A DNA stretch of 36,601 nucleotides from a virus: positions 1 to 36,601 of IMG/VR virus record IMGVR_UViG_3300021962_000292; one strand, 5' to 3'. Below, piece after piece: positions 1-36,601 of this stretch (position 1 is the stretch's first letter; each line of letters opens with the position of its first letter). Both the position numbers and the translations under genes were made by a program. The notes under the pieces are model-generated. The model searched no databases. It had not been told where the DNA came from and worked only from the letters and a program-made list of their open reading frames with translations.

Positions 1-893
1 ATAATGTGTTCATCGTAGAGTTCTTGGTAGGACAAGTCACTGAAATCACCAGATGGAGCGTAGTTTAGGATCTGTATAATCGGTTTAGACAGCTTCTGAT
101 CCTCAATAAGCTCCTGCGTGGTTCTGGTGGTCTGTATACTGCCAAATGCGCCCTCAAGCTCGTATAGGTAGATCGGCTTGTCTGGCAGAGTTGCTGTGAA
201 TCCGTAGCGGTATACGGCTGCTGGGAACGAATTAATGGCTGCTGTAGTTACTTCTCCCTTGCAGAACTTATGAACCTCGTCAACCATCAGTACTTCAGAA
301 TCACGGTAATCATCAAAGATCTTCTCTAGGCTCTGATAAGTACTGAGCATTATCTGGCCTTTAACAAGTCCGTCACCAGAGTTAGCCCCTACATTAGTAA
401 ACTTACAATTCTTCGTCAGGAATTTATAAGTTTGATTAAGGATGCCCTTCTCATCAAACAAGATTAGGGTCTTTCTGGGTGCTAGAGCCTTTAACAGACC
501 AGCCATAATAAGGGTCTTACCTGACCCAGTAGGTGAGTTAACTAGGCAGCGTCTCTTCTCTAATGCGGTATCAATTACCCTTTTTTGATAATCATAAAAA
601 TCAAAGTCTTTAATTGTAGGACTTTGAGTTCCGGGAGTGTAGGTAAAATCTTGAACTATCTCAGGAGTGCAACCTATTCTTTTAAGCTCTACTAATACAC
701 GGTCTAAAAGTCCCGTCCTAAAGTTACCAGCCTTGTTAATAAAGTATTTCTTACCATCCCAATGCCTAAGTTTAAAAGCCTGAACGTACTCATGCCCGGG
801 AACAGGGAAAGCGAATAGGTTAACTAAAGCCTTAAGTAGACCCGGGTTATCGGTTTCTATCCTAGAGATAAGATTGCCTACTAAAATCCTCAT
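1..893 (-). CDS. uvsW: UvsW-like SF2 DNA/RNA helicase (N-terminal part, C-terminus beyond window)
   Basis: The reverse strand is open from an ATG at 893 to the window edge (297 codons), so the C-terminal RecA domain is missing. The N-terminal domain has the HWDGKKYF stretch (residues 44-51), comparable to the NWDGRIRL region of T4 UvsW, followed by a Q-motif-like YDYQKR (100-105). Walker A is SPTGSGKT (120-127, K126). The Walker B box is DEVH (205-208). Motif III is FTATLP about 30 residues further on. T4 UvsW is a late-expressed ATP-dependent branch-migration helicase that unwinds R-loops and recombination intermediates. The start lies in a 7-bp inverted repeat (892-911), and the only SD-like bases (AGTAGG) abut the ATG. 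The gene diverges from the gp26-like gene across 31 bases. Family membership is firm; the exact orthology is an inference from N-terminal domain resemblance. Confidence 0.85.
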   Translation of the reverse strand, partial: MRILVGNLISRIETDNPGLLKALVNLFAFPVPGHEYVQAFKLRHWDGKKYFINKAGNFRTGLLDRVLVELKRIGCTPEIVQDFTYTPGTQSPTIKDFDFYDYQKRVIDTALEKRRCLVNSPTGSGKTLIMAGLLKALAPRKTLILFDEKGILNQTYKFLTKNCKFTNVGANSGDGLVKGQIMLSTYQSLEKIFDDYRDSEVLMVDEVHKFCKGEVTTAAINSFPAAVYRYGFTATLPDKPIYLYELEGAFGSIQTTRTTQELIEDQKLSKPIIQILNYAPSGDFSDLSYQELYDEHI

Positions 894-911
894 ACCTACT
901 ATAATAGGTAT
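892..911. promoter_or_regulatory. Inverted repeat in the helicase/gp26 divergent gap, with a TATAAT box in its loop
   Basis: ATACCTA (892-898) and TAGGTAT (905-911) are perfect 7-base inverted arms around CTATAA. On the helicase mRNA the 3' arm contains the AT of the ATG and the only SD-like bases, so a hairpin there would hide the start. On the plus strand TATAAT (900-905) matches a sigma-70 -10 box, but no well-spaced -35 was found. It could be an operator, a translational hairpin or chance. Confidence 0.35.
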
Positions 912-924
912 TAAGGACGAAATT

Positions 925-1677
925 ATGGCTATAGATAAAAAGATTGCACAAAGTATGGATAAGGATAGGGAAGATATCCTTCAGAAACTTCTTAGTGAGG
1001 TTCCCGCAGACTCAGAGATTATTTTAGATCTGCCATCCAGAAGTAAGTTTTACAATGGAGTAAGCCAAATTGTTGTAAAGCCAATGACGTTTGAAAACGA
1101 AAAGAACGTTGTTGCAAATTTAAAGAGAGATGTTGATCCTATCAATACTTTGCTGGCTGATTGTGTAAAAGGAGTTAACATATCCGACCTGTTAATATTT
1201 GACAAGGTCTATATCTTAATGAGATTAAGACAGCTTTCTTACGGGGAGAACTACGAGTTTAAAGTAGATTGCCCTAAGTGTGGTAAAGAGTCTCAAGTAT
1301 CAATGTCACTTAACGATTTAATCGTAAACGAGATTCCTGACGATCTAACCGATCCTAGAGAGGTAACTCTCCCAGTATGTAAGAAGAAAGTTAAAGTTAG
1401 ATTTCCTAGAGTTAGAGACGAGAGCTTTTTAATGACTGCCGAACAAGTTAATAATAATATTTATAAGCTTGTTGAGTCGGTAGAGGGTATCACAGACCTC
1501 TTAATTATTAATCAGTTTATTAAGAAACTGCCCCTTAGAGACATAAAAGCTATAGTTAAAGAAATTAATAGGACCGACTTAGGTATGGATCCTAGAGTGC
1601 TGTTTGAATGCCCTAAGTGCTTTAAATCAACGGAGGTTAGCATTCCAATCACAGCAAATTTTTTTTCAGTCAGCTAA
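925..1677 (+). CDS. 26: gp26-like baseplate/tail assembly protein (0-frame product)
   Basis: This 250-residue protein resembles the T4 gp26 baseplate-hub family (T4_baseplate type): an N-terminal helix, then a beta segment LPSRSKFYNG and VVKPMTF, then the helical stretch FDKVYILMRLRQLSYG followed by YEFKVDCPKCG. Two Cys pairs, C116-x2-C119 and C229-x2-C232, could form a zinc ribbon. An upstream in-frame TTG at 874 would overlap the divergent helicase, so ATG 925 is preferred; it has AAGGA at 913-917. The gene ends just after an 8-T run where a -1 shift would extend it (see 925-1856). By position upstream of the tape measure it behaves like a tail assembly chaperone or hub assembly factor. The gp26 assignment rests on recalled family features and synteny. 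Confidence 0.65.
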   Translation: MAIDKKIAQSMDKDREDILQKLLSEVPADSEIILDLPSRSKFYNGVSQIVVKPMTFENEKNVVANLKRDVDPINTLLADCVKGVNISDLLIFDKVYILMRLRQLSYGENYEFKVDCPKCGKESQVSMSLNDLIVNEIPDDLTDPREVTLPVCKKKVKVRFPRVRDESFLMTAEQVNNNIYKLVESVEGITDLLIINQFIKKLPLRDIKAIVKEINRTDLGMDPRVLFECPKCFKSTEVSIPITANFFSVS

Positions 1678-1856
1678 TTGATGAAGTAAATATAGAAAAC
1701 TTACTTTATCAAGCCTACATATTAGTTAGCAAGCTTCGTTTTTCTTACTCTGACGTTAAGAATATGACTAAGCATGAACGAGCCTTGTTTATTAAGTTTT
1801 ACGTCAAAGAACTAAAGGAACAAGAAGATGCTTATAGGCGCAGTACAAGCAAATGA
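925..1856 (+). CDS. gp26-like protein, predicted -1 frameshift extension (310 aa)
   Basis: Slipping back one base on T-TTT-TTT (1659-1665) after residue F247 opens a 63-codon extension reading from 1665 to a TGA at 1854-1856. The extension reads FSQLIDEVNIENLLYQ..., then KLRFSYSDVKNMTKHER, then LFIKFYVKELKEQEDAYRR. It is charged and helical, has no early start codon of its own (the only ATG is at 1764), and fills the 150-base gap before the next gene, overlapping that gene's start by 29 bases. This is the layout of G/GT tail-assembly chaperone frameshifts upstream of tape measures. In T4, gene 51 follows gene 26, so the extension might replace a separate gp51-like part. An assembly error in the T run is the main alternative. 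Confidence 0.6.
1659..1665 (+). other. Candidate -1 slippery heptamer T TTT TTT
   Basis: Eight T residues occupy 1659-1666. In the zero frame the codons are AAT TTT TTT TCA, so positions 1659-1665 form an X-XXY-YYZ heptamer with all T, which allows both tRNAs to re-pair in the -1 frame. The zero frame ends nine bases after the run (TAA 1675-1677), the +1 frame ends at TGA 1679, and only the -1 frame stays open, for 63 codons. No downstream pseudoknot was worked out. Confidence 0.6.
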
Positions 1857-2766
1857 CCGTAACAATAACCCCCCTCAATTATCCAAGGTGGGGTTACAAG
1901 TTTTCTTTATGCAGGATGGAGCTTATCAAGATCCATTTCAAATTAGTGCAGTTTCAATATTCAAGGCAGCAGGAACCTACAGCCCATCTTCAATCCTTAA
2001 CACCGATGAGTTAATAGCTTCATCGGTGTCTGGTTCCATACTGATGAACTTCGCCAACTCATCAGCCGATACAACTAATGCAGCATTTGATCCTTCAAAC
2101 TGTGCTGCCGGAGCCAGTGGCATTTATCGTTTAGGCCCCGGAAACTATGCTGTTCTTTTAGATGGTGAAGTATCTCAATCAGGTGTAGTAAATCTTTACG
2201 GCGCAAATACAGTAATAAAAAATACTGTTTCAAACATCGGAGACTTTGTAGATGTCTGGACCATCAAGATGGTCGCAGGCTCGGAACTAGAGACGGTCCT
2301 AAACTACTTCACGTTAACCAGAGGTAATTTCTTTACAGTCACTGAACCTATACTGTTTAGAAGCAGAACCAGATTATTAAACAATTCAGTAATTCTTGGT
2401 TCTAAAGTAGATCTAAAGATTGATACTGAGATAACGGTTGAAAACAAAAACATAACTGACGAAGTTAAGAACGTCATCAGAACCTCTGCTTTAAGATCTC
2501 CTTCAATTGAAATCTACAAGCTTAACGACGAACTCAACTTACCAGCTAGGATAACCGTGTCATCTTACTCAGACACTTCTGCTTTAACAAGTGTTAATAG
2601 TGCAGATACTATCGTGTTCACTTGGGATACGGAACAACTTAAGACTCACCCACAAGCTTTGTTAGGTAAGTTCGGTGGTATAGTAGGAATGTATGCTATT
2701 CAAGTTAAATACAATCTATTTAACCAAAGAATAGTCAGTCCCCTAATGCATCTAACTGTCGAGTGA
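1828..2766 (+). CDS. Virion-type structural protein of unknown function
   Basis: This 312-residue protein has no recognised enzymatic motif. It is rich in Ser, Asn, Thr and Val, with beta-type segments such as VGLQVFFMQDGAYQDPFQIS and YRLGPGNYAVLLDGE, and the C-terminal third (ITVSSYSDTSA, IVFTWDTEQL, YAIQVKYNLF, VSPLMHLTV) looks like a beta sandwich. No signal peptide or membrane segment is evident. The start has AAAGGA about 8 bases upstream and overlaps the predicted frameshift extension of the gp26-like gene, suggesting coupled translation. Its 3' end overlaps the convergent primase gene by 32 bases. Placement between the gp26-like gene and the tape measure suggests a tail or baseplate accessory part; that is inference only. 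Confidence 0.55.
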   Translation: MLIGAVQANDRNNNPPQLSKVGLQVFFMQDGAYQDPFQISAVSIFKAAGTYSPSSILNTDELIASSVSGSILMNFANSSADTTNAAFDPSNCAAGASGIYRLGPGNYAVLLDGEVSQSGVVNLYGANTVIKNTVSNIGDFVDVWTIKMVAGSELETVLNYFTLTRGNFFTVTEPILFRSRTRLLNNSVILGSKVDLKIDTEITVENKNITDEVKNVIRTSALRSPSIEIYKLNDELNLPARITVSSYSDTSALTSVNSADTIVFTWDTEQLKTHPQALLGKFGGIVGMYAIQVKYNLFNQRIVSPLMHLTVE

Positions 2767-3727
2767 TACTAAACTTGAAATAAGGTGTCGTTGCAGCCTT
2801 AATCGCTTCAACTAGACACTTGGCGTTCCTAGAGCACTTTGTTAGATAAAAGTCGTTCCAATCCTTACTACCAAAGGGAACGGCAACAGAGATATCAGGC
2901 ATTCTAGCCTCTCTTCGTAAAGTATCAAATCTTTTAATACCTTGTAACCCAGCGTTATCGTTATCATAACAAACAACGATAGGACCACGATATTGTTTAA
3001 GCTGATCTAATTGGGCTTTGGATACGGAGCAGGAGATTGTGGTGGTAGCGTTTAAACCGCAGTTCTGGAGGGTTATAGCATCGATTGCGCCCTCACAAAT
3101 GTACAGAGGGTCTGTGGAGTCATATTCAAACGGATAAAGGACATTAGCCGAGGGGATGTTTCTGGCGTTAAGATACTTAGGTTGCATACCATAGAGGAGT
3201 GCACGACCTTGGAAATACATGTAGTCCCCGGTCGCAATCCTATACGGGATGATAACCCTGTCCCTGAAGAAGCCCTCTGAGGAGGCGTAAAAAGTCCTAT
3301 TAGCCCCGAACCAATCCCATACGCCTCTTTCCTCAAGGTACATCCACGCAAGCGATCCAATGACCGTATACGGCTTTGAGTGCTGGAATACGGGCTGGAA
3401 GAAACACTTATCGGTATCCCCAGCGACAGTCTTGGGGGTTATCTTCTTAACTTCATCGTCTGCAAGGAAGGTTTCGATAAGAAACTTCTCGTAGGCACGC
3501 TGGTAAGATATGTTCTCTAACTTTGCGTACAAGGTAATAAAGTTACCTTTGTTACCAGTCTTAAAGCATCTCCAAAGTCCATTGTCTAGGTTGACCGACA
3601 TGTGCCTCTTGTAGTCGTGTTCTAAGAACACCGATGGCACTATAAGTTCAGAGTCATCGCTAGAAATTCTATAATTGGTATTGAACTTTCCCAGCAAATA
3701 CTCTCTAATGTAGGAAGAAGAGATCAT
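2735..3727 (-). CDS. 61: DnaG-type DNA primase, T4 gp61-like
   Basis: The 330-residue length is close to T4 gp61 (about 340). An N-terminal CHC2-like region (about residues 28-63) keeps the fold pattern MSVNLDNGLWRCFKTG but has only C54 and a nearby His; V30 and T57 stand where Cys would be expected. RVIIPYR, YFQGRALLYG and PKYLNAR (157-189) match the primase RNAP-basic region. The TOPRIM motifs are YICEGAIDA (E212) and YDNDNAG (D255, D257). It should make RNA primers with a replicative helicase. An in-frame stop lies two codons before the ATG, fixing the start; no SD is visible. The start codon touches that of the nuclease gene (CATATG), and the 3' end overlaps the convergent structural gene. 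Confidence 0.85.
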   Translation of the reverse strand: MISSSYIREYLLGKFNTNYRISSDDSELIVPSVFLEHDYKRHMSVNLDNGLWRCFKTGNKGNFITLYAKLENISYQRAYEKFLIETFLADDEVKKITPKTVAGDTDKCFFQPVFQHSKPYTVIGSLAWMYLEERGVWDWFGANRTFYASSEGFFRDRVIIPYRIATGDYMYFQGRALLYGMQPKYLNARNIPSANVLYPFEYDSTDPLYICEGAIDAITLQNCGLNATTTISCSVSKAQLDQLKQYRGPIVVCYDNDNAGLQGIKRFDTLRREARMPDISVAVPFGSKDWNDFYLTKCSRNAKCLVEAIKAATTPYFKFSITRQLDALGD

Positions 3728-4522
3728 ATGTTTTTATCAACACTAAGTAATACTAAATCTGATGTAATAGACCAGTGCCTGAAGAAGTACGAGTATAAAT
3801 ATATTTGGAAGTTCCCGGGATTTCCATCTAAAAACGAGGATTCTTTGAATTTTGGCTCGTACATCCATAAAATTTTTGAGGAAGGCTACAAAGACAATGA
3901 TATCAAGACTCTTGAAAAACTCGCTGAAGACCTGAAAAAATCTTACAAAGTTCCTTATCAATTCAGGGACAAGACGCAGGAATGCTTGGACAACTTCTTA
4001 AAGTTTAACTCCAAGCTGGGCGAGACGTTAGCTACTGAGTACGAGTTTAAGATAGAGCTAGTGGAAGGAATAACTTACACTGGATTTATTGACAGGATAG
4101 TTGCTGGTAAAGAAGGTGGAATATTAATTATTGATTACAAGACTTCTAAGTCTGAAAAGAATCGAGTGCAACTGTTCAATGATAACCAGCTTAAAGGTTA
4201 TGCTTTTGCAGTAGGTCAAATCTTTAAGAAGGACTTGAAAGATATCTACTGTGGACATTATTACCCACTAACTGGTAACTTTGTAGATATCCAGTACCCC
4301 CAAAGCAGCATCAACAAGTGGAAGAAGGAAGCTGTCGATAGAGCTTGGAAGATCAGGAAGAAGAAGGCTGACGAGTTCCATCCAAGCAAGAATACTTTCT
4401 GCGAGTACTGCGAATATCAGCAGATGTGTCCAGCTTTCTGTGCAGCCCATGATGTGGCTGTAAGGATTGAAGAACAGAAAGTACTAAAGAAGAAGCTGGA
4501 TGAAGAGACTAAGAAACAGTAA
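3728..4522 (+). CDS. PD-(D/E)XK exonuclease, Cas4/RecB-type with Fe-S cysteines
   Basis: This 264-residue nuclease has all core motifs of the PD-(D/E)XK superfamily: a FGSYIHKIFEEG helix, GFIDRI (D122), IIDYKTSK (D136, K138) and the QLKGYA helix (Q154). Four cysteines in the Cas4/AddB pattern, C17 plus C225-x2-C228-x5-C234, suggest a 4Fe-4S staple joining the two ends; C238 is an extra Cys. The length fits phage Cas4/RecB-like nucleases, which process DNA ends in recombination or degrade host DNA. AGGAAGAAGAG precedes the ATG. It is divergent from the primase with no spacer, and convergent with the small minus-strand gene (14-base overlap). No cas1, cas2 or repeat array is present, so a CRISPR role is not indicated. 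Confidence 0.85.
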   Translation: MFLSTLSNTKSDVIDQCLKKYEYKYIWKFPGFPSKNEDSLNFGSYIHKIFEEGYKDNDIKTLEKLAEDLKKSYKVPYQFRDKTQECLDNFLKFNSKLGETLATEYEFKIELVEGITYTGFIDRIVAGKEGGILIIDYKTSKSEKNRVQLFNDNQLKGYAFAVGQIFKKDLKDIYCGHYYPLTGNFVDIQYPQSSINKWKKEAVDRAWKIRKKKADEFHPSKNTFCEYCEYQQMCPAFCAAHDVAVRIEEQKVLKKKLDEETKKQ

Positions 4523-4802
4523 GTTTACCAACTATTAGTGGTGAATACATTTCTTTAAGGTCAATAGCCTCAAAGAAATTAACTACTTGTTCTTTTGAGT
4601 AACCACATTTTGTAGACAAGTAGTTAAAGAGAGTCTGGATCTTTAGTGGTTTTTGGTTCTTAATAGATTCTAATAACTTAGTTTGGAATAGTTTTAAGAA
4701 TCTTTCACTAAATCTATATCTCCATCTCTCTATGAATTTATCACTTAATGTATAGTTTATTAAGTCTAATGTCTCTATAAGGTATTCATCTATGTTACTC
4801 AT
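4509..4802 (-). CDS. Small helical protein, possible gp33-like late-transcription coactivator
   Basis: This 97-residue helical protein is charged and Leu/Phe rich. Its central part (NYLSTKCGYSKEQVVNFFEA, then IDLKEMYSPLI) is reminiscent of the core helix-turn of T4 gp33, which bridges RNA polymerase and the sliding clamp for late transcription: a stretch of the form GYS-x-EQVV-x-FFE followed by an acidic turn and a second helix. It lacks the hydrophobic clamp-binding C-terminal tail of T4 gp33 (it ends KLTVS), so the assignment is weak. A TATAAATA late promoter in this window is compatible with a gp33/gp55-type system. No SD is seen; TATATAGAAT on the minus strand about 20 bases upstream may be a -10. 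It is real by length and by its place in an otherwise empty gap. Confidence 0.45.
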   Translation of the reverse strand: MSNIDEYLIETLDLINYTLSDKFIERWRYRFSERFLKLFQTKLLESIKNQKPLKIQTLFNYLSTKCGYSKEQVVNFFEAIDLKEMYSPLIVGKLTVS

Positions 4803-4844
4803 ATCGTGTTTTAATTCTATATAAGAATAGAGTTTTTCTGTTAG

Positions 4845-4882
4845 AAAAGGAACAAAAATATTTTTATTTTTGAAAAAATATG
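4845..4882 (+). promoter_or_regulatory. Shine-Dalgarno separated from its ATG by an AU hairpin
   Basis: AAAAGG (4845-4850) is 29 bases from the ATG at 4880, too far for direct use. Between them AAAAATA (4854-4860), loop TTTT and TATTTTT (4865-4871) form a perfect 7-bp stem. Folding it would leave about 11 bases between SD and ATG. An in-frame TGA at 4871-4873 rules out an earlier start. T4 gene 25 is a known case where a hairpin brings a distant SD to the start. The stem is all A-U, so its stability is modest. Confidence 0.4.
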
Positions 4883-5581
4883 AAAAAAAGAATTACGGTA
4901 AGAGATTTAGTACCTCTTGTTGAGTCTGCTGGGTTCCTATCCAGTCAGGCTAAACAGATACTAATTAAGTCTTTTGACTCTGTAGTTCGTTCTTTTCATA
5001 CCAGTGTACTTACAGCTATAAACAAGATAAAGTTTAACAAGTATACTAATGCAGTAATTAATGCTTTGGAACAAAGATTAAAACAAGATGCAATTAATCA
5101 ATCAGATAAACAATTAAAGAATATAATAAAACAATCCTCCGAAGTCGTTAAGGTAAACGACTACATGAAGGAAAAATTCGCTAGAGTCTTAAGTTTAAAG
5201 TCTGGATCTGTTATTATGTTCCAGTATACTGATGAACAGGGATCAGTTACGAATAGGACTGGATTAGTAGTAGGTGGTGCAGAAGGTCCAGATAAGGTAT
5301 TTTTTATATCAAAAGGTAACGAAGTGTTTTTAAAAGTATTAGATATGACTAAAACTTCAACTCCTACAGCGATATACTCTATACTCAAGTATACTAATAG
5401 TATTGAAAACTCTATGGATTCCTCCAGCAAAAATAAAGGAAGATCCATGAGTATGTCTTTTACAGATGCAGTAACTAACCCAAATATCAGGTCCTATGTT
5501 TCAACCAATGACTTTAGGTCTTTTAATATAAGTAGGATAAGTTATTTGTCCACTATAAAGTTAGGAACTTCAGAAGTCTGA
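4880..5581 (+). CDS. Unknown protein upstream of the tape measure
   Basis: This 233-residue protein was not recognised. The N-terminal half (about 1-95) is helical and basic with a coiled-coil look (VINALEQRLKQDAINQSDKQ). The middle (about 108-160) is a small beta domain (LKSGSVIMFQYTDEQG, TGLVVGG, KVFFISKG). The Ser/Met-rich C-terminal third (SSSKNKGRSMSMSFTDAV) looks flexible. There is no signal peptide or membrane segment. It is the first gene of the uninterrupted rightward tail block and sits 22 bases before the tape measure, a place where tail chaperones or tube/tape accessory proteins are common. That role is a guess from position. The start is set by a stop codon just upstream and an unusual SD arrangement. 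Confidence 0.6.
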   Translation: MKKRITVRDLVPLVESAGFLSSQAKQILIKSFDSVVRSFHTSVLTAINKIKFNKYTNAVINALEQRLKQDAINQSDKQLKNIIKQSSEVVKVNDYMKEKFARVLSLKSGSVIMFQYTDEQGSVTNRTGLVVGGAEGPDKVFFISKGNEVFLKVLDMTKTSTPTAIYSILKYTNSIENSMDSSSKNKGRSMSMSFTDAVTNPNIRSYVSTNDFRSFNISRISYLSTIKLGTSEV

Positions 5582-5603
5582 CCTACATAAGAAGTGAGTA
5601 ATT

Positions 5604-7691
5604 ATGGCTAAAAAAGATGAATTAAGGGATTTAGAAATAAAGATGATTTCTTTTCTAGGGAGTGTAAATGACTCTTTAGAAAAAGCATCTACAAATTTTC
5701 AAACTCTTAATACTAACTTAGAAATCGCAGCTAGGTCTTTAGGGGATAGAGGTCCAGACGGTCTGGTAGGAAATTTACAAATTTTAAAAGATTCTATAAA
5801 AAAGATAGTTTCTGAAATATCAAATATAAATGTCCCAGCAAATGGAATGGGTAACTCAGGTGGACTAACACCATCACCTTACGATTTTATTATAAGTTTT
5901 CCTCCGGTAACTCCCCCACCTATTCAACCACCTGTAATTCCCCCACCTTTACCACCCCCACCACCACCACCAGAACCACCAACTAATAAACTTGAAAGAA
6001 TATTGGATAATTATTTTCAAGGTAACAGTGATGACAATGGCCTGAATTATTTTACAGGTCAAATTATTTTACAAGCATTTACTGAATTACAAAAAGTAAC
6101 TACAATGTTTTTCGATGGGGTGAGTAATCTTATTCCTTCGATTGATAGTCTTTCTATAGTTACTAATCTTTTAGATAAGGTTTCTTCAAATATAGCAGAA
6201 TTACCAAACAAAATAATAAGCTTGAATCAAAATTTATTAGGAATGGGAACCAACATACAAGATTTTAAAGATCAAGTTGGTTTCATGACAAATGAATTAG
6301 CTGGGAGCACTGCTCAAAATCTACAAAATGCGGCAACTTTGTATTCCCAAGGATTTAGGGGTAACAATAAATCTTTGTTAGAACTAGCAGCAATAATGGA
6401 TCTAACAGGACAAAGAACCTCAACTCTTACTAATGATTTCACTAGAATGTCTACTGTTATGGGATTAACTAACAGACAAATGAATGTTCTCGCAGAAGTT
6501 GTTAGACAAAGTTCAGATGATTATAAAGTAAAGTCTGACGAACTAATAGAAGCATTAGGAAAAGTTCAGAATCAAAACGTTATGGCTACTGCTGGTTTCG
6601 GTGCAACTTTTATGAGAAGTTTAACTCCTCTTCTTGGTGAGTTTAAAAGAAATAGCACTGAGATAGTTGGATTGGTAAATGCTTTAACTAAAACTGATAC
6701 TTTGTTAAAACTTGCTCCAATTGATCCCCAAATAACTTCTTTAGCTAGAAGGATGGAAAGGGCGGGTAGTGCAGAGGAATTAAAGTCTATCTTAATTCAA
6801 ATAACAGGAAGGCTTTCTAGTTTTGCACAAATGATGGCAGGACAAGCAGGAGCAGCAGGATCTGCTGGTTCCCTCCCAACTACTGCAATACTAGCTGATA
6901 TATTAAATTCTATAGGAATGCCATTAGCAGACGCAACTCAATTATTTAGAGCTTTAACGGGTCAATTAGATGAGTATACAATAAAATTACAACAGAGCCA
7001 ACAGGTGCAAGATAGCTATGCAGCCGCAACTCAAAAACTAGCTAATGCAGCACTCCCTTTTATAACTAGTTTAGTTAATATGGCTACTAGCATAATTAAT
7101 TTTATTGGTGGTGGTGGAGGGTTTGTAATTCTTTTTGGATCTTTACTTTTTCTTGCTAAATCTTTTGTATCTCAAGCTGTGAGTATAGCAACTACTACTC
7201 TTTCCTTGTATCAATTAAGACTACAAATTTTGAGTATGACTGTATTAACTAATGTTAATAATGCGTCGTTAAGACAAAGTATTATCAGCTTAGTGTCATT
7301 TGCATCCACTGCTTCCTTCTGGGCAGGAGTTCTTTCTTTTGGATTAACTGCAATCCTAGGTGTTATTGGTGGAATTGCAGCTTGGAGCGCAATGGATTCA
7401 GACTCAACTGAATTAAACACTGATGCTATCTCAAAAAATACTGCCGCTCTTCAAAACAATTCTGATATAAGATTTAAAGATGCTACTGCACAAAACATCT
7501 TCCTAGATACCATGAATAGAAATATTGCTTTTGTGTTAACAAGAGAATCTGCAGTTCAAGACGCTTTAAAACAAATGGTTTCTCAGGGTCAAGTACAGCA
7601 AGATCAAATGAAAGCTTTGATTAACACTGCTATGGCTCAATACATGGCAACACAAAACTTGGGAGCAACTAGACCAGCAGTAGGTCCATAG
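5604..7691 (+). CDS. Tail length tape measure protein
   Basis: The 695 residues have the tape-measure pattern: a helical N-terminus (1-80), a long helical Gln/Asn/Leu-rich middle with few charged clusters, and Gly-rich hydrophobic segments near the C-terminus at about 499-525 (INFIGGGGGFVILFGSLLFL) and about 564-594 (WAGVLSFGLTAILGVIGGIA), typical of proteins that enter the host membrane. Residues 100-126 are almost pure proline (including seven in a row), an unusual rigid spacer. It would set tail length inside the tube and later help DNA passage. T4 gp29 is somewhat shorter (about 590). GTGAG precedes the ATG. It lies directly upstream of the junction and hub genes, matching the order in myophages and PBSX-like tails. 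Confidence 0.8.
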   Translation: MAKKDELRDLEIKMISFLGSVNDSLEKASTNFQTLNTNLEIAARSLGDRGPDGLVGNLQILKDSIKKIVSEISNINVPANGMGNSGGLTPSPYDFIISFPPVTPPPIQPPVIPPPLPPPPPPPEPPTNKLERILDNYFQGNSDDNGLNYFTGQIILQAFTELQKVTTMFFDGVSNLIPSIDSLSIVTNLLDKVSSNIAELPNKIISLNQNLLGMGTNIQDFKDQVGFMTNELAGSTAQNLQNAATLYSQGFRGNNKSLLELAAIMDLTGQRTSTLTNDFTRMSTVMGLTNRQMNVLAEVVRQSSDDYKVKSDELIEALGKVQNQNVMATAGFGATFMRSLTPLLGEFKRNSTEIVGLVNALTKTDTLLKLAPIDPQITSLARRMERAGSAEELKSILIQITGRLSSFAQMMAGQAGAAGSAGSLPTTAILADILNSIGMPLADATQLFRALTGQLDEYTIKLQQSQQVQDSYAAATQKLANAALPFITSLVNMATSIINFIGGGGGFVILFGSLLFLAKSFVSQAVSIATTTLSLYQLRLQILSMTVLTNVNNASLRQSIISLVSFASTASFWAGVLSFGLTAILGVIGGIAAWSAMDSDSTELNTDAISKNTAALQNNSDIRFKDATAQNIFLDTMNRNIAFVLTRESAVQDALKQMVSQGQVQQDQMKALINTAMAQYMATQNLGATRPAVGP

Positions 7692-7706
7692 TAATAGGAA
7701 AATAAA

Positions 7707-9416: not shown

Positions 9417-9433
9417 TAAGGATAATATAAAAA

Positions 9434-9730: not shown

Positions 9731-9734
9731 ATGT

Positions 9735-12842: not shown

Positions 12843-12844
12843 AC

Positions 12845-14065: not shown

Positions 14066-14067
14066 TA

Positions 14068-14088
14068 TTAAAATTACAATAATTTTAA
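14068..14088 (+). other. AU hairpin after the spike gene
   Basis: TTAAAATT (14068-14075) and AATTTTAA (14081-14088) form a perfect 8-bp stem with loop ACAAT, starting three bases after the spike gene stop. No U tract follows, so a standard intrinsic terminator is unlikely; an mRNA 3'-end or processing structure is possible. Confidence 0.35.
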
Positions 14089-16722: not shown

Positions 16723-16723
16723 T

Positions 16724-17185
16724 ATGGTTCTTAACGAAGATACTACCGTTTATGGGTTTTCTAATGTAAAAAGAGAAGACCTACAAACAAAAAGCCAGTT
16801 AAATAAGTTTTATGGTTTACAGTATCCATTAGGCAAAGACACATCTAATGGATACTTTTCCACTATTAGTTCTAGTAAATTATTTAAAGCCAATTTAACT
16901 CAATTAGTAAAAACTTCTCCCGGAGAAAGGTTCATGCAACCTAATTATGGTTTAAATTTAAAAAGATATTTATTTGAACCAGTAACTCCTTTTTTATTGG
17001 GGGACATGAGAAGTTATATAACAAACACAATAAAAACATATGCACCTTACTTAGAGTTGCAAAAAATAGAACTAACAAGTAAAGACAGATCTTCTCCCGG
17101 ATTTATAGCTAACGTAATAATTAAACTTTATTGTAGAATTAAATCTGAAGAAGAAACAACGATTGAAGTTAAATTAGAGGTATAA
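16724..17185 (+). CDS. 25: Baseplate wedge protein gp25
   Basis: This 153-residue protein shows the full gp25 family signature: FKANLTQLVKTSPGERFMQP, NYGLNLKRYLFEP (about 50-90), then helices (LLGDMRSYITNTIKTY) and a final strand pair (VIIKLYCRI, TIEVKLEV). gp25 is the wedge subunit that contacts the first sheath ring and nucleates sheath assembly; relatives occur in T6SS (TssE) and R-pyocins. Length is close to T4 gp25 (132). The gene begins one base after the previous stop and ends one base before gp6, the usual order for contractile tails. Confidence 0.92.
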   Translation: MVLNEDTTVYGFSNVKREDLQTKSQLNKFYGLQYPLGKDTSNGYFSTISSSKLFKANLTQLVKTSPGERFMQPNYGLNLKRYLFEPVTPFLLGDMRSYITNTIKTYAPYLELQKIELTSKDRSSPGFIANVIIKLYCRIKSEEETTIEVKLEV

Positions 17186-17186
17186 A

Positions 17187-18797
17187 ATGGCTTTCACTGG
17201 ATTAGTAACATCTGATTTCATGAAAAGAGTTAGGCTCGATGACTCTAAAAAGGAATCATTATTAGACTTCGCAGCAACAGATTTTATAACTCTAAGAGAA
17301 AACTTAGTAAAGTATGTCAAAGCGGCCTATCCATTAGACTATAACTTTTTTGCAAGTTCAGATTTAGGAATAATGTTTTTAGAATTAACAGCCGCTATGG
17401 GACATATCCTGTCTTATAAGGCTGATTATCTTGCTAACGAAAACTATTTAAGAACAGCAAGATCCAGAGAAAGCGTAAAAAACTTATTAGAACTTATTGG
17501 CATTCGTATGAAAGGACCAACTGGGGCAGCAGCTAATGCAACTCTTACATTAGAGAATCCAAGTTGGACAACAGGAACCGATTATCTCTCAATAAGCCCA
17601 GCACAAAGAGTTTTAACTATTACATCTCCTGAGGATGGTAGCCAAGTCTCCTATACTCTTTATAAGACTACCCCAGAAGGAATGATAGATACTTCTGATT
17701 CTTCAGAAGAAATCACAATAACAAGATCAGAAAATACTTCTGAAACGGAAATAAAAAATTTAGCTTTAATTGAAGGTAGTTTAGTAAAACAAACAGGACA
17801 GTTTTTTGATACTGACGCTCTAAAAAATATTAGCTTAAATCAATCTCCAATAATTGAAGGTAGTGTACAAGTATTTATAGATGGGACGGCACAGACTCAA
17901 GGAACCTATACACAAATAGAAAACATCTTTGCTGCTTCCGGTCCAACTGACAAAGTATTCCAATTAACCACAGATTCTAATTTTACCGGAAGAGTATTTT
18001 TTGGAGATAACTTAATAGGTCAATCTCCAACAATAGGCGATACTTATACTGTATATTACAGAATTGGTGGAGGAACTAGAGGTAATGTTGGTAAGGGAGC
18101 AATAAATGCTCCTGTTAATGTTACGTTTTACAATTCATCAAATACCTCACTAGGAACAGGTACTGGAAATGTAACTAACACTTCTATGGCTACCGGAGGA
18201 TCTACTGCTCAAACAATCGAAAACGCAAAAAGATATGCACCTCTGTTATTCAGGTCTCAAGACAGATTAGTAACTCTTAACGACTATAAAGGGTTTACAA
18301 ATTCATTTAGAGCTTCTTTAGGATCTACAGGTAAAGCTACAGCAACAGTAAGAAGAGCTTTCTCGTCAGCAAATATTATTGACCTTTACATTTTAGAAAA
18401 AGCAAACGACACTCAAATGAAGAGGGCAACGCCAGAATTTAAAAAGCAATTATTAGAAGCTATTGAACCCAAGAAGATGTTGACTGATGAGGTTGTTGTA
18501 GTTGACGGTTTAATTAGAACTATAGATCCAGTAATTACTGTTAGATGTGATTTAATTTACAAACAAAGAGAGCCTGATATAAAATTAAGAGTTAGAGATT
18601 CGATAGTAGACTTCTTTAATGTAGATAATTTAGACTTTGGTAAATCTTACAATTCATTAGAAGTTACTAGAAAAATATTTAATGATGTTCCTGAAGTTCG
18701 TTACTCAACAATAGACAATTTACCACAAAGTATTAAATTACAATTTAATGAAATAATTCAATTAAATAATCTTTCTATAGTAATGGTGTTTGAATGA
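17187..18797 (+). CDS. 6: Baseplate wedge protein gp6 (gpJ-like)
   Basis: The 536 residues match the gp6/J family: an N-terminal DFAATDFITLRENLVKYVKA and NFFASSDLGIMFLELTAAMG (about 25-75), YLANENYLRTARSRESVKNL, a beta middle with VYYRIGGGTRGNVGKG (about 287-303), then the C-terminal NAKRYAPLLFRSQDRLVTLN and DYKGFTNSF (about 346-375) and an alpha/beta end. gp6 dimers form the iris ring that opens on baseplate triggering. It is shorter than T4 gp6 (660). GAGG lies 7 bases upstream. The stop overlaps the next start (ATGA at 18794), indicating coupling. Confidence 0.92.
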   Translation: MAFTGLVTSDFMKRVRLDDSKKESLLDFAATDFITLRENLVKYVKAAYPLDYNFFASSDLGIMFLELTAAMGHILSYKADYLANENYLRTARSRESVKNLLELIGIRMKGPTGAAANATLTLENPSWTTGTDYLSISPAQRVLTITSPEDGSQVSYTLYKTTPEGMIDTSDSSEEITITRSENTSETEIKNLALIEGSLVKQTGQFFDTDALKNISLNQSPIIEGSVQVFIDGTAQTQGTYTQIENIFAASGPTDKVFQLTTDSNFTGRVFFGDNLIGQSPTIGDTYTVYYRIGGGTRGNVGKGAINAPVNVTFYNSSNTSLGTGTGNVTNTSMATGGSTAQTIENAKRYAPLLFRSQDRLVTLNDYKGFTNSFRASLGSTGKATATVRRAFSSANIIDLYILEKANDTQMKRATPEFKKQLLEAIEPKKMLTDEVVVVDGLIRTIDPVITVRCDLIYKQREPDIKLRVRDSIVDFFNVDNLDFGKSYNSLEVTRKIFNDVPEVRYSTIDNLPQSIKLQFNEIIQLNNLSIVMVFE

Positions 18798-23758: not shown

Positions 23759-23759
23759 A

Positions 23760-25346: not shown

Positions 25347-25354
25347 GGTAATCT

Positions 25355-31539: not shown

Positions 31540-31545
31540 TAAGTT

Positions 31546-34281
31546 ATGCCTTCTAGATTATCAAATTATTTTAACTGTGGTGGGTTAAGACCATTAAGTT
31601 ATAGATTAACATCTAGGGGCGTAATAAATATACCTACTATAGAGCCTCCATATGTTGGAACTAGGCCAAGAGTTAAGCCTAGAATATTCCCTCCTACGAT
31701 TCAAGAGCCACCGGACATACCTACTACAACGGTAAAACCAAGACCCCCAAGCACAACTGTCCCTTCAGTCCCTGTGGTTCCCAACGAGCCTGCAAATCAG
31801 TCTACAGGAACTCCTACGAATCCTGCAGGAGTATCTACGGGAATACCTACTGGTCCAACTCAGACAGGAACAATAGGAACTTTTCCGGGAGGAGTAACCC
31901 AAGTAACTCAAACTGGAGTAGTAAATATTGTTGGTGCAGGTATAACTAGACCCCCTAAAATTAATACTACTAATGCTTTATTTCCAAGATCTAATGAATC
32001 AACTGTAGTTGTTACTAATCAAACTACTAATACTTTAGGGGAGAATACTCCAGTTGATACTAGAGGTAGAACTTTAAATCCTAAAATTACTGAAGTCCCG
32101 ACAAGATACAAGGGTGTAGTTAATAATGGAATAAAAAGTTGTGAGCCCTGTTTAACTAACGAACCCTGTCAGTATAGATCAGAGGCTGAGTGTATTCAGT
32201 CATTTTTATTTGGTGATCCTGATTTATCTTTTGAAGTTCCCTCAAGAGGATTAACAAATAATCAAAAGCCTAGATATCTTCCCCAATCTCAATACACAGA
32301 AATTTCAAGAAATACTTATGACGCACAGTCATCAGAATTTTTTAGAAGATCTTTACCAAATCCTCCCCCTAACACAAGTCCCAGAGCAGAAAATTTAAGA
32401 ATAGTCGGAGACTCTGTAAGAGAAGTAAAACCTATTAAATATGATGAACAAAAAAATACAATGTATTTTGACGATGATAAAAGAATAGAAATAAAAATAA
32501 ACTTAGATAAATTATACGATGAGACTTATAATTTTTTTGATTACCCACCAACAACACAGACTAAGATAGTTTCAAACTCTATAAGATTAGACATTTTCAA
32601 AGACAGAATTCCTGAAGAAGTTAGTTACTTTTTAAAGAAAAATCAAAATCAACAATCGAATAAGTGGCATGAAAAAATTTACTTTGATTTAACTTTAGAT
32701 AAGTTAGCTTTGAGTATTAATAATATACTTTTAAATTCTTTTAAATCAATTCATGATAATCAATCAACTTTAGTTTCCTTAGACGATTTTTTAATAACAT
32801 TAAAAAACCTATTGATAAGTAATAAGTTACAAGAATTTAATCCGTCTTTTTATACAGATTTATCAATTAAACAAAAAAACGATGAGTTGATAAGTATAAG
32901 TCAACCTGCAACTCAAACACTAAAAGACAGAGCAGTAATATCCCTTGTGGAAAATGGAGCGATACTAGCTGACCCGGGATATTATGATGGATATAACAAG
33001 TTTAAATTACTAAGACAAAAAAGATTAAATACAGATATAAATTCTAGGATAGAAGTAACCACGTTAGACAATCAAGATTTAGATATATTTTTAGAAGATG
33101 CTGGTATCAGTTTTAGTGACATAGATGCCACGGATAATTTCGTTGAGATAGGGGTTGGTGATGGATACTTTATCGAAACCACTAACATTGACGATGTTCA
33201 GTTATCTGTTCCTACCCCTAATGAATCTGTAAAAGCTCTATTAACTCCATCTACAATTAGAAATTTAGCATTAAGAACAGCGGGGGAACCTGATACAATT
33301 TCAATAACAGTTAGCTCTGTCAGCAGCAATAATGAACTTACCGATACTTTTAATATGCATGAGGAGGGCACACTATTCTTTGAACTAGTGTTATCTTCCG
33401 TGGTAATAACAAATGAATCTCAAACTTTACTTAACAAACTAAAAGCAAACTATAAACTTGTAACAAGTGAATCTAGAATTAATGACCTAATTATTAATTA
33501 TGGATTTAATACAACAAAAATTAACTTAGACTTTAGAGATCCATTACTAACTTACGCAAAAGATTCTAGTTCTTTTGTAATGGAAAAGTCTGATATTACT
33601 TTTAGAAACTTTGATTTTTATATTAGTGGGACACACGATAGCTCATTTATATTAACCAGAAACATTCCTTTTGCTATTGTTTTAGTTCCCGGTTGTGGAT
33701 CAGAACACAATCCATTTGATAGTCAATCTGAATTTATAAACTTTAATAATAATATAATTAGTAGAAATATAACTTTAATTAATACTATAAAAGTAAAAGA
33801 CAACCAAGAGTTAGACACATCTTTAAAAGAAGCACCTACAGAAAGAACTGACAGCCCACCACCAGATTACTATGGGTACGCTGATAAACTTTATTATTCT
33901 TATGATCCTAGTTCTTACACAAATACTTATTACTATGACAACACCCGTTACTCAAATAAACCAACTCAAATAACCTCAACTAGACCTATTGTTGCTAAAA
34001 TAATAAAAGAAATTATACAACCTTTAATTATAAAGTATTCTCCAAAAGAATTAAAATGGTTTGATATATTTTCCAGATTAACATACTCAGAAATGGGAGA
34101 GTATGTAACTAGGGGTGATTATACCTTAATAACAGATTTAGTTAAAAAATTATATAACATATCGATTAAAGATGTTATTGCCACAGATAAGGATACTATA
34201 ACTGGAATCATATCTACAGAGGAGTCGGAAGATATAGAAGTTACAGTTCGGGAACCTATAATAACAGCAGGAGATAGATAA
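31546..34281 (+). CDS. Pro/Thr-rich virion protein of unknown function with a Cys cluster
   Basis: This 911-residue protein has a Pro/Thr/Val-rich, probably extended segment (about 30-190, e.g. PPTIQEPPDIPTTTVKPRP), then a Cys cluster, C199-x2-C202-x5-C208-x7-C216, then a long acidic helical and beta region (about 290-900). No catalytic motif was recognised. The Cys spacing could hold a metal or disulfides. It ends TAATG, overlapping the PAAR-like gene by one base; AGGAG near its end serves as the SD of that gene. Location at the end of the baseplate block suggests a long linker or peripheral baseplate part, by inference only. Confidence 0.5.
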   Translation: MPSRLSNYFNCGGLRPLSYRLTSRGVINIPTIEPPYVGTRPRVKPRIFPPTIQEPPDIPTTTVKPRPPSTTVPSVPVVPNEPANQSTGTPTNPAGVSTGIPTGPTQTGTIGTFPGGVTQVTQTGVVNIVGAGITRPPKINTTNALFPRSNESTVVVTNQTTNTLGENTPVDTRGRTLNPKITEVPTRYKGVVNNGIKSCEPCLTNEPCQYRSEAECIQSFLFGDPDLSFEVPSRGLTNNQKPRYLPQSQYTEISRNTYDAQSSEFFRRSLPNPPPNTSPRAENLRIVGDSVREVKPIKYDEQKNTMYFDDDKRIEIKINLDKLYDETYNFFDYPPTTQTKIVSNSIRLDIFKDRIPEEVSYFLKKNQNQQSNKWHEKIYFDLTLDKLALSINNILLNSFKSIHDNQSTLVSLDDFLITLKNLLISNKLQEFNPSFYTDLSIKQKNDELISISQPATQTLKDRAVISLVENGAILADPGYYDGYNKFKLLRQKRLNTDINSRIEVTTLDNQDLDIFLEDAGISFSDIDATDNFVEIGVGDGYFIETTNIDDVQLSVPTPNESVKALLTPSTIRNLALRTAGEPDTISITVSSVSSNNELTDTFNMHEEGTLFFELVLSSVVITNESQTLLNKLKANYKLVTSESRINDLIINYGFNTTKINLDFRDPLLTYAKDSSSFVMEKSDITFRNFDFYISGTHDSSFILTRNIPFAIVLVPGCGSEHNPFDSQSEFINFNNNIISRNITLINTIKVKDNQELDTSLKEAPTERTDSPPPDYYGYADKLYYSYDPSSYTNTYYYDNTRYSNKPTQITSTRPIVAKIIKEIIQPLIIKYSPKELKWFDIFSRLTYSEMGEYVTRGDYTLITDLVKKLYNISIKDVIATDKDTITGIISTEESEDIEVTVREPIITAGDR

Positions 34282-34619
34282 TGGGTTATGTGCTAAGACA
34301 GACAGATGCAGTTATAACAGACGTTGGGCCATTACCATTTGTTCCCCCCAGCCCAAACTTAAATGTGTTTGTGAATGGATCTTTGGCCGCAGTAACTTCT
34401 GAGTTGTTGCCAGCAAAGCTAGCAGAACACATTTTGGTTGCAATAACACACATTTCCTTAATTCCTCCTAACCCCTTAGTTGAGGCAAGGGTCTTTGTAG
34501 GTCCAGCAAATACAGCTTTTGTTACATCCGCTCATCAGATACAGAGCCCACCTTGTGCTCCTTTATATATAAATTCTCTTACTCCTTTTGCTAACAATGT
34601 ATTTGTAGGTCCAATTTAA
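34281..34619 (+). CDS. PAAR-like spike tip protein
   Basis: This 112-residue protein shows PAAR-like repeats: SPNLNVFVNGSLAAV (about 24-38), ARVFVGPANTAFV (about 69-81) and NNVFVGPI at the end, i.e. recurrent V-F-V-[NG]-G-type hairpins. H50, H57, H85 and C92 could supply the three-His one-Cys zinc site known from PAAR tips. PAAR proteins (T4 gp5.4) cap the spike needle and sharpen it. The start has AGGAG 8 bases upstream and overlaps the previous stop. It is the last gene before the late promoter, far from the spike gene at 12845. The repeat and length fit; the family call is moderate. Confidence 0.6.
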   Translation: MGYVLRQTDAVITDVGPLPFVPPSPNLNVFVNGSLAAVTSELLPAKLAEHILVAITHISLIPPNPLVEARVFVGPANTAFVTSAHQIQSPPCAPLYINSLTPFANNVFVGPI

Positions 34620-34704
34620 TTAAATAATTATTAAAATTTTATCTATATTTTTTGAGTTTGATTATAAATAGTTTATAGGACATAATTTATTAATTGGTGA
34701 TTTT
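34620..34704 (+). other. Intergenic gap between the baseplate block and the prohead block
   Basis: This 85-base AT-rich gap holds the late promoter at 34663-34670. AATAATTATT and AAAATTTT short palindromes followed by TATATTTTTT (about 34625-34652) might be a weak terminator for the tail operon, but no G/C-rich stem is present, so this is not called. Confidence 0.5.
34663..34670 (+). promoter_or_regulatory. T4-type late promoter TATAAATA
   Basis: An exact TATAAATA lies in the intergenic gap, 34 bases before the ATG at 34705, with no -35 box. This is the consensus read by T4 late sigma gp55 with gp33 and the sliding clamp. It would drive the prohead core, basic protein and protease genes. Other exact copies in the window fall inside coding sequence at about the rate expected by chance. 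Confidence 0.7.
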
Positions 34705-35259
34705 ATGGTAAAAAAGCGTTTTGACGAAACTGATAGTTTTATTAACACCGTTCTGACAGAGGCTAACTGGGATCAAGCTAACATTAAGTTAAAACTTAAT
34801 GAAGAGTCTAATCCTTTTGAAAAGAAGGACGATGAGAAGGAAGAAGATAAAGAAGAGCCAAAGGAGAATGGTGATAATGAGGAAAACGAGGAGGAAAAGG
34901 ATGAAGAGAAGCAAGAGGAGTCTGTCGAACTAGGTTACGATGCTTGCCCTCTTTGTGAGTCAGAGCTAGAGAATGATGATGTTATATTTGAAAACATCGA
35001 CACTCACTTTAGTAACCTTCTCAATTTGGTTGATCAAGTTGAGCAAATCCAAGAGTCCGAAGACTTTGATGGAGAGGTAATGATTGAGTCAGTTGTTGAA
35101 GATGGCTGCTGCCCACTATGTGAGTCAGCCGTTGAAGACGATTCAGTTATCCTCAATAACATGAATGAGCACTTCGATGTTGTTTTAGAAATGCTTGAAG
35201 AAGCAGAACAACTTGAAGAAGGCTATGGAAAAAAGAAACCACTTCCTAAGAAGAAGTGA
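34705..35259 (+). CDS. Acidic prohead core-like protein with two Cys/His repeats (gp67-like position)
   Basis: This 184-residue, strongly acidic protein contains a Glu/Asp/Lys-only run (about 41-74), as in the T4 prohead core protein gp67 that occupies the same place before gp68 and gp21. A possible gp21-type cleavage signal, L17-T18-E19, is followed by Ala. Two repeats of about 38 residues carry CPLCES and a His 20 residues after the first Cys: C81, C84, H101 and C136, C139, H156. They may bind metal singly or pair with each other. The end is basic (KKKPLPKKK). GGTGA lies close to the ATG. The gp67 role is inferred from acidity, order and promoter; the zinc-like repeats are not part of T4 gp67. 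Confidence 0.55.
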   Translation: MVKKRFDETDSFINTVLTEANWDQANIKLKLNEESNPFEKKDDEKEEDKEEPKENGDNEENEEEKDEEKQEESVELGYDACPLCESELENDDVIFENIDTHFSNLLNLVDQVEQIQESEDFDGEVMIESVVEDGCCPLCESAVEDDSVILNNMNEHFDVVLEMLEEAEQLEEGYGKKKPLPKKK

Positions 35260-35284
35260 TCTTAATTAATTACTGAGACAAGTT

Positions 35285-35704
35285 ATGTCCAAATATCCAA
35301 AAACCTCAGTTGTTGATATTGCCATGGGGATCCTTGAAAACATGGATCCCAAAAAGTCTTCTATACAATTAGAAGGAACTTCTAATAAAATTGTAGAAAA
35401 TAAGGATAAGGGAGTAGTTTCAGATTATGTCCCGGACATTACCAAAACTGATGTCTCTGATAACTATGTTGATAATATCCTACAAGAGTCACTTGGAGTT
35501 AAGGTAACCAAGAAACCAGAGTCTAATACCAAAAAAATCACCGTTGAAAACAAATTAAACGATCTGGTTAATAGATTATCTTCTCTACTAAGTGAAGCAA
35601 AACAAGTGTTAAAAGAAATGGATATGCCATTAACTCCCGCAGCCACTAAAGTAGGTTCAATTGGAGTTAAGTTAGTTGGAAAAAATAAGAAATCGAAAAG
35701 ATAA
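35285..35704 (+). CDS. Prohead core-like protein (gp68-position candidate)
   Basis: This 139-residue charged, helical protein has no recognised enzyme motif. ILE (16-18) near the N-terminus matches the [LI]-x-E cleavage rule of gp21-type proteases, with another at ILQES (about 66-70) and one in LLSEAKQVLKEM (about 98-110), a probable amphipathic helix. The end is basic (KNKKSKR). T4 gp68 is 141 residues and lies between gp67 and gp21, so size and order agree, though no sequence identity could be shown. Its stop overlaps the next start (TAATG). Confidence 0.5.
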   Translation: MSKYPKTSVVDIAMGILENMDPKKSSIQLEGTSNKIVENKDKGVVSDYVPDITKTDVSDNYVDNILQESLGVKVTKKPESNTKKITVENKLNDLVNRLSSLLSEAKQVLKEMDMPLTPAATKVGSIGVKLVGKNKKSKR

Positions 35705-36123
35705 TGTTAGATCTCTTTTCAATCATAACTGAATCAAGAAGCGAGAAAGCTAAAGGTTCTAAGGCTGGTAGAGAGAAGATGCTCTCCGGCAAGGGCAAAG
35801 CCCACAGCATATCAACAAAGTCTAGAGTTAAATTATACGGAAGTATAAAAGACGCTTTATGTAATGGATACGTCGGTCAGATCTTTTCAACAAAAGGTTC
35901 TGATAGACTGTATGTAATTACAAAAAGAAAATGGGGAACTGATAAAGAGCAGGAGTGTGGCGGCAGAGTTGCAAAAGGATTTAGTCCCGGAAGTATCCCT
36001 TCTAGTTTCCGAGACGTAAAGAAATATGCCGCTAGAACAATGGTTCGTCACGGAAAGTCCACTGCAACAAGTCTTAAAGGCTACTTTAAGAAAAACAAAA
36101 AGAAGGATACGAAAGAAGATTAA
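35704..36123 (+). CDS. Small basic protein in the prohead operon
   Basis: This 139-residue basic protein starts MLDLFSIITES. I8-T9-E10 before Ser fits a gp21-type cleavage site, which would remove a ten-residue leader. The rest is Lys/Arg/Gly-rich (SKAGREKMLSGKGKAHS, VITKRKWGTDKEQEC, KGYFKKNKKKDTK) and could bind DNA or the acidic core. It resembles no named family I can identify. Location between the gp68-like gene and the protease, plus the leader, suggests a packaged internal or core protein. It starts on the previous gene's stop (TAATG). Confidence 0.5.
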   Translation: MLDLFSIITESRSEKAKGSKAGREKMLSGKGKAHSISTKSRVKLYGSIKDALCNGYVGQIFSTKGSDRLYVITKRKWGTDKEQECGGRVAKGFSPGSIPSSFRDVKKYAARTMVRHGKSTATSLKGYFKKNKKKDTKED

Positions 36124-36125
36124 TT

Positions 36126-36601
36126 ATGTTATTAACTGACGTTAGACTAGTAGAAAATTTACAAGTAATTAGTGAGTCTACTGGCCCCGGAAAGCCAATG
36201 AAAGTTCGTGGCATATTCCAAAGAGCCGACGAAGCTAATAACAATGGTCGTATATATCCTCAACAAGTATTAGAGAATGCTATCAATAATCTTATTGAAG
36301 CAGTTCAAGAGCGTCGTTGCGTCGGTGAGTTAGATCATCCTACCTATGACATGGTTAAGCTGTCTAACGCTTCCCATATTATAACCAGCCTTCGTTTCGA
36401 GGGCAAGGATGTTATCGGAGAAGCTGAAATTCTTTCTACTCCAGCCGGAAAGGTTGTTGAGGCACTTATCAGAGACGGAATCAAGATTGGTATTTCCAGC
36501 CGTGGTATGGGAACTCTGAGTGAAGGGAAAGGACATAAGATTGTTAATGAGGACTTTAAACTCTTAACATTTGATATCGTAGCTGACCCTTCTACCCGTG
36601 G
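36126..36601 (+). CDS. 21: gp21-like prohead core protease (C-terminus beyond window)
   Basis: The frame is open from ATG 36126 to the edge (158 codons). It has the T4-type prohead protease pattern: VRGIFQRADEANNNGRIYP (27-45), VLENAI, GELDHP (67-72, H71), SHIITSLRFEG with H84, DVIGEAEILSTPAGK, and IKIGISSRGMGTLSEG (119-134, S124/S125), then FDIVADPSTRG. The His in ELDHP or SH together with the Ser in SSRG are the likely catalytic residues of this herpes-assemblin-like fold. I15-S16-E17 near the start fits self-cleavage at the same [LI]-x-E rule. It matures the core and shell proteins in the procapsid. The scaffold and capsid genes are expected just to the right. Confidence 0.88.
   Translation, partial: MLLTDVRLVENLQVISESTGPGKPMKVRGIFQRADEANNNGRIYPQQVLENAINNLIEAVQERRCVGELDHPTYDMVKLSNASHIITSLRFEGKDVIGEAEILSTPAGKVVEALIRDGIKIGISSRGMGTLSEGKGHKIVNEDFKLLTFDIVADPSTR

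Follow-up and report, generated by a model that had tools for sequence, protein, structure and literature searches.

An aquatic T4-related phage lineage without CCWGG in a family whose eliminated word switches between lineages

Gene content of the window and absence of CCWGG

The window analysed here is the entire IMG/VR contig IMGVR_UViG_3300021962_000292 (36,601 bp, 34% G+C) and, as judged from its predicted genes, is a fragment of an uncultured T4-related myovirus. Clues to its lifestyle come from T4-type structural and replication genes, and no DNA methylase was seen in the incomplete genomes of its group. The following features were annotated:

1 to 36,601, both strands: CCWGG-free stretch (motif count over the whole contig)
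1 to 893, minus strand: UvsW-like DNA helicase, gene cut by the contig end (phrog_16, E 1.9e-35; ResIII/DEAD)
874 to 1677, plus strand: T4-type baseplate hub protein (phrog_150, 1.1e-27; PF12322, 3.1e-23)
2735 to 3727, minus strand: Toprim DNA primase (phrog_47, 1e-32; PF13155)
3728 to 4522, plus strand: PD-(D/E)XK exonuclease, RecB/Cas4-like (PF12705, 1.6e-24)
16724 to 17185, plus strand: gp25-like baseplate wedge (phrog_261, 8.2e-16)
17187 to 18797, plus strand: gp6-like baseplate wedge, used as a query for relatives (phrog_219, 4.9e-38)
36126 to 36599, plus strand: head maturation protease, gene cut by the contig end, used as a query for relatives (phrog_207, 2.5e-53)

When both strands were searched, CCAGG and CCTGG were each found zero times, against 17.0 and 15.4 expected under a maximal-order Markov model, and they are the most under-represented pair among all 1024 5-mers (z of -5.0 and -4.9). 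For the two words together, 0 sites compare with 32 expected (pooled Poisson log10 P of about -14). The first-pass annotation of this DNA had described CCWGG as wholly absent, and this holds on either strand of the 36,601 bp; its expectation of about 20 sites was too low, as was its count of about 30 for CCCGG/CCGGG, since CCSGG is really present 42 times, against 13 to 25 expected depending on the model. CCWGG is a short palindromic sequence of the type recognised by Type II enzymes, and is the site of EcoRII/MvaI.

To obtain a codon-level null, codons were permuted within each gene, so that the protein and the codon usage were kept. In 2000 such synonymous shuffles the coding sequences contained 30.3 +/- 3.6 CCWGG, with a minimum of 18, against none in the window. 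The expectation for the three frames was 21.7, 4.2 and 4.4, and every frame was empty, including those that do not encode Pro-Gly: NCC never precedes TGG or AGG, and NNC-CWG-G is never present. Under the same null, 10.6 CCSGG were expected for the 42 found, an enrichment of about 3-fold (3.1x). The products expected from C-to-T decay of CCWGG were at expectation, with 58/56.5 for CTWGG (1.03x) and 54/56.6 for CCWAG (0.95x).

The same selection was apparent in the codons used for proline. Before GGN, the window uses CCC 16 times, CCG 12 times and CCT or CCA never (n = 28), whereas before codons that begin with G followed by another base it uses 109 CCW and 16 CCS (n = 125). The earlier count of 28 Pro-Gly pairs, all with CCC or CCG, was therefore exact. 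The first-pass annotation had also proposed that an equal bias in other Pro-Gxx contexts would speak against selection; when these contexts were compared, the bias was limited to those creating CCWGG. Therefore, the codon null, the Pro-Gly contexts and the lack of any excess of decay products establish that the absence of CCWGG is caused by selection against the word itself, and not by base composition or deamination.

Persistence in relatives and switching of the eliminated word

Relatives were retrieved by protein similarity (exonuclease, gp6, primase and protease) and with a capsid profile, the motif never being used; a RecA scan yielded few of them. All the contigs with a gp6 at least 60% identical to that of the window had zero CCWGG, and this clade, supported at 100 on the major-capsid tree, gave a pooled count of 0 against 345 expected in 15 contigs (352 kb). 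Both the window (0/32) and the clade (0/345) show an observed/expected ratio below 0.1 where more than 15 sites are expected. Two members, almost identical to the window (94.5% for G003, 98.1% for G016), do not count as independent of it. Nucleotide identity within the clade is mostly 72-80% where alignable; therefore, there has been ample time for synonymous sites to change, and the absence of the word has persisted over deep divergence. Another contig, G062, contains replication genes and 0/18 CCWGG; it comes from the same metagenome as G002, and its first 120 bases encode the final 40 residues of a gene that is complete in G002, with a protein 100% identical. Other contigs of the same metagenomes have normal CCWGG (16 sites in L072 of 3300045457; 23 in G055 and 20 in L194 of 3300010354), so a library or assembly artefact was discarded.

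At conserved Pro-Gly positions of orthologous genes, the lineages that are GTAC-depleted or unpurged have CCW in 251 of 272 aligned pairs, whereas CCW is never used by the CCWGG-free clade. When members of the clade are compared with one another, 151 of 455 pairs show an exchange between CCC and CCG and no CCW appears, all these figures being counts of pairs and not of independent events. Selection at synonymous positions is consequently seen in the codon null, in the Pro-Gly contexts and in the orthologues.

Sister lineages lack other words. GTAC was absent from 11 contigs in which 607 sites were expected, and was partly purged in another set (73/499); single contigs, for example, had 0/113 and 0/102. 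CCGG-free lineages had 2 sites for 227 expected in 7 contigs, five doubly purged contigs had neither CCWGG (0/216) nor ACGT (0/312), and CASTG was eliminated in a few relatives. Outside the clade of the window, contigs were pooled by the trait itself, so that these totals are descriptive and it is the single-contig values that test the absence. The codon bias of the CCGG-free phages is the mirror image of that of the window: Pro-Gly is written with CCW in 103 of 103 cases, because CCC-GG and CCG-GG both create CCGG, compared with 0 of 209 in the CCWGG-free clade and about 90% elsewhere.

The eliminated word therefore switches between lineages of one collinear phage family, as purged words differ among sister phages of the same gene order and all are of the restriction-site type. 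On the major-capsid tree the fewest state changes were 2 for CCWGG, 4 for ACGT, 5 for CCGG and 9 for GTAC, by a quick method in which gain and loss are indistinguishable. The G033-G039 group lies inside the GTAC-free clade and may be a case of a lineage leaving the purged state. One metagenome, 3300010354, contains CCWGG-free and CASTG-poor members together. The purge of CCWGG recognised by the first-pass annotation is real, but it is just one instance, the sisters purging GTAC, CCGG, ACGT and CASTG.

A further depletion extends over the whole family. SAGCTS (GAGCTC, CAGCTG and the asymmetric CAGCTC) reached only 3-16% of the expected count in all lineages, SAGCTW and WAGCTW were normal across the family, TCCGGA was almost missing from most lineages, and several other six-base sites were also depleted across most of them. 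In Beggiatoa, SAGCTS has been described as a Type II methylation motif (PMC4675945). None of the family-wide depletion was seen in a more distant group, G041-G044, whose protease is about 46% identical. A near-complete relative of 130.6 kb, found as contig 3 in a single-cell genome deposited under the name Prochlorococcus, had no ACGT (0/168) and no CCGG (0/103) and lacked 13 six-base palindromes altogether, and a 100-kb relative lacked CCWGG (0/108) and ACGT (0/189).

Candidate agents in the phages and in a possible host

The accessory proteins of three relatives (the 130.6-kb relative, the 100-kb relative and the G002/G062 pair of about 79 kb) were scanned with Pfam and PADLOC, and no restriction-type endonuclease or DNA methylase was detected among these proteins of incomplete genomes, with profile libraries that miss fast-evolving restriction enzymes. 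Neither PF00145 nor PF01555 gave a match in the phage contigs examined, and a phage-encoded methylase or restriction enzyme was set aside as a candidate for the proteins and contigs covered. A search of the phages with PF15515 gave no match and was uninformative, as the control genomes were equally silent.

Two nucleases were considered as possible cutters. The PD-(D/E)XK exonuclease at 3728 to 4522 belongs to one cluster that is represented in contigs lacking CCWGG, GTAC or CCGG, and was discarded as a site-specific cutter because it is common to lineages with different eliminated sites. A conserved PDDEXK_15 protein is likewise shared by lineages with different purged words and has relatives in more than 1000 other phages; as a cutter of SAGCTS it was not supported, given that Lysinibacillus phage LysYB1 has a related gene and a normal SAGCTS count (61/64). 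Thus, among the proteins scanned, no nuclease gene tracked the missing site, PDDEXK_1 and PDDEXK_15 being shared across lineages.

The only possible link to a host is the presence of the near-complete relative inside the single-cell genome. This genome carries a SinI-type restriction pair (RE_SinI, 3e-40), and a genus-wide methylase search around it matched that genome alone. SinI cuts GGWCC, and the 130.6-kb phage contig has a normal number of GGWCC (115/125) but no ACGT or CCGG. Because this system does not fit the missing sites of the phage, the single-cell genome was rejected as the matching host, although its cell may be an unusual host of the phage. psbA is missing from the phage contig. 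Far-T4 phages, to which the family may belong, have been linked computationally to Flavobacteriales (PMC13037479).

Restriction as the probable cause of word elimination

It is highly probable that the lineage lost every CCWGG because some bacteria of its host range carry a Type II restriction enzyme that cuts this word. In such a cell, incoming phage DNA that is not modified would be destroyed unless site-free, and mutants gaining CCWGG would meet the same fate, so that CCA and CCT before GGN would be replaced by CCC and CCG and the other two frames would be cleared too. Where related lineages encountered hosts carrying different enzymes, they would have lost GTAC, CCGG, ACGT or CASTG, and several six-base sites together with SAGCTS would have been cleared in most of the family. 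The agent would then be a host restriction enzyme specific for CCWGG and not for CCNGG or CCGG, two words that are still present, and it would probably cut at single sites, because not even isolated CCWGG is tolerated. A Dcm-type methylase alone gives no reason for site loss; therefore, a restriction enzyme is needed. Restriction systems of the MvaI, EcoRII and PspGI type recognise CCWGG, which is exactly the word missing from the window.

Counting against a host enzyme are the SinI-type pair of the only candidate host, whose GGWCC site is not avoided by the phage, and the depletion of SAGCTS and six-base sites across the family, which over many metagenomes is broader than the system of one host. 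Of the selection by an EcoRII/Dcm-type system in the host range suggested by the first-pass annotation, the selection against CCWGG is confirmed by the codon null and the orthologues, and the cognate enzyme and its host were not found.

It is quite unlikely that the phage carries a gene of its own for a CCWGG-specific endonuclease, unaccompanied by a methylase and directed against host or competitor DNA, with its own genome kept site-free and the nuclease swapped between lineages. A swapped phage gene would indeed give total elimination that switches between sisters, and the genomes of these phages are incompletely sampled, but the scans and profile searches described above were negative, and PDDEXK_15 is common to lineages with different missing sites and to many other phages. 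Moreover, a single nuclease would not account for the roughly 15 different sites missing from one genome, and exposure to many host systems explains the disappearance of so many unrelated words better. A more specific form, in which lineages exchange a small site-specific nuclease of the early region and each genome is purged of the site of its own nuclease, we regard as quite improbable; if true, the capsid tree would record swaps of weapons and not of hosts. Avoidance of CCWGG for a cause other than restriction, such as a packaging, transcription or repair signal, is very unlikely, since the avoided words vary among sisters whose genes are in the same order, and every one of these words is of the restriction-site type.

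Mutational loss, in which C5 methylation of CCWGG by a Dcm-type enzyme is followed by decay through deamination, is suggested by the fact that CCWGG is the Dcm site. This was ruled out as a candidate by the lack of any excess of CTWGG and CCWAG, and it is highly improbable also because CCSGG is enriched, because decay alone would leave an equilibrium count and not 0/345, and because cousins purge GTAC, for which that route does not hold. Base composition, chance, shared ancestry or a sequencing artefact can be given almost no weight: the low G+C (34%) reduces the expectation, but the Markov and codon nulls each expect about 30 sites, CCCGG and CCGGG, which are richer in G+C, occur in excess, nucleotide identity within the clade has fallen to 72-80%, and CCWGG is present in other contigs of the same metagenomes.

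Type II site elimination is an established strategy of non-temperate dsDNA phages (Rusinov et al. 2018, PMC6286503), and is reported to be total or almost total in roughly a tenth of viral genomes (PMC6286503). The window belongs to this known kind, with the same observed/expected ratio below 0.1 for short restriction-type sites (PMC6286503). In that study, sites were paired with the enzymes of known host species, whereas here the evidence is a comparative series within one family with switching sites and mirror-image codon use. The clean switching of words and the mirror-image codons are the uncommon part, and no earlier description of such switching among collinear phages of a single family was found in a limited literature search.

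Comparable cases exist outside the family. The last 50 kb of Agrobacterium phage Atu_ph07 (MF403008) lack CCWGG (0/43) and SAGCTS (0/16), but this is an unrelated 490-kb phage with normal ACGT and CCGG. Rhodothermus phage RM378 (NC_004735), the cultured reference for the Far-T4 phages (Roux et al. 2015), with a terminase and portal about 30% identical to those of the family, which match RM378 about as well as they match other T4-types, is reduced in CCWGG (5/58 and 16/59 in two 50-kb stretches) and in SAGCTS (5/40 and 13/36 in two 50-kb stretches); its depletion is incomplete, and CCGG and ACGT are normal. The RM378 genome is rearranged (PMC4360716). Methylophilales phage Melnitz and Pelagibacter phage HTVC008M (Kyanoviridae), cultured T4-type relatives with a head protease 48% identical, also have other palindromes strongly depleted (GATC 4/158 in Melnitz), but their CCWGG is only mildly low and their SAGCTS is normal; Melnitz encodes a HhaI-type methylase, whereas none was found in the family of the window.

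The family therefore offers a natural experiment, in which related phages with collinear genomes have different words fully purged. The restriction specificity of uncultured hosts would become readable from the phage alone: the hosts of the window clade are predicted to carry a CCWGG cutter, and those of the sisters a GTAC, ACGT or CCGG cutter. Gain and loss of purging can be followed on the tree, and missing words can help to assign fragments to one phage lineage, as with G062.

Other depleted words in the window and across the family

Beyond CCWGG, additional restriction-type words were low in the window (1-36601): GAATTC was found once against 13 expected, TCCGGA was absent (0/5, observed/expected), GTAC was reduced to 50/87 and SAGCTS was also absent (0/22; S being C or G). 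This last word, which has been described in Beggiatoa as a motif of Type II methylation (PMC4675945), was detected at 3-16% of its expected count throughout the family of related phage contigs (all family contigs, e.g. L216-L222, L276 and L281-L285), whereas SAGCTW and WAGCTW (W being A or T) were at normal levels in the same contigs.

Relatives in a single-cell genome and in culture

A near-complete relative of 130.6 kb (G045 contig 3, L216-L222) was found within a single-cell genome deposited under the name Prochlorococcus. This phage contig, on which no psbA was detected, had zero counts for ACGT (0/168), CCGG (0/103) and 13 six-base palindromes. The asymmetric CACGAG was likewise absent from it (0/17). 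The same single-cell genome carried, after the end of an apparent guaA:

L249:852-2673, SinI-type restriction endonuclease and adjoining C5 methylase

In the cultured Methylophilales phage Melnitz (L131, 1-50000), which encodes an HhaI-type methylase, GATC occurred 4 times against about 160 expected, and GGWCC was absent (0/20).

Lineages within the family

Two contigs of the CCWGG-free clade of the window, 3300021962_005623 (L276:1-120) and 3300021962_000129 (L021:8-1042), carry the same gene end at their contig ends, with 100% identical protein. Judging from this common end, they are probably adjacent parts of a single phage genome.

CCWGG and ACGT were both missing in one lineage (L281-L285, L288-L291, L223 and L224), the pooled contigs of which contained AAGCTT at 2/89, compared to near-normal levels in the rest of the family. 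GTAC was near normal in G033-G039 (L105-L114 and L122-L124), a group placed within the GTAC-free capsid clade, as though the purging of GTAC had eased or had arisen repeatedly.
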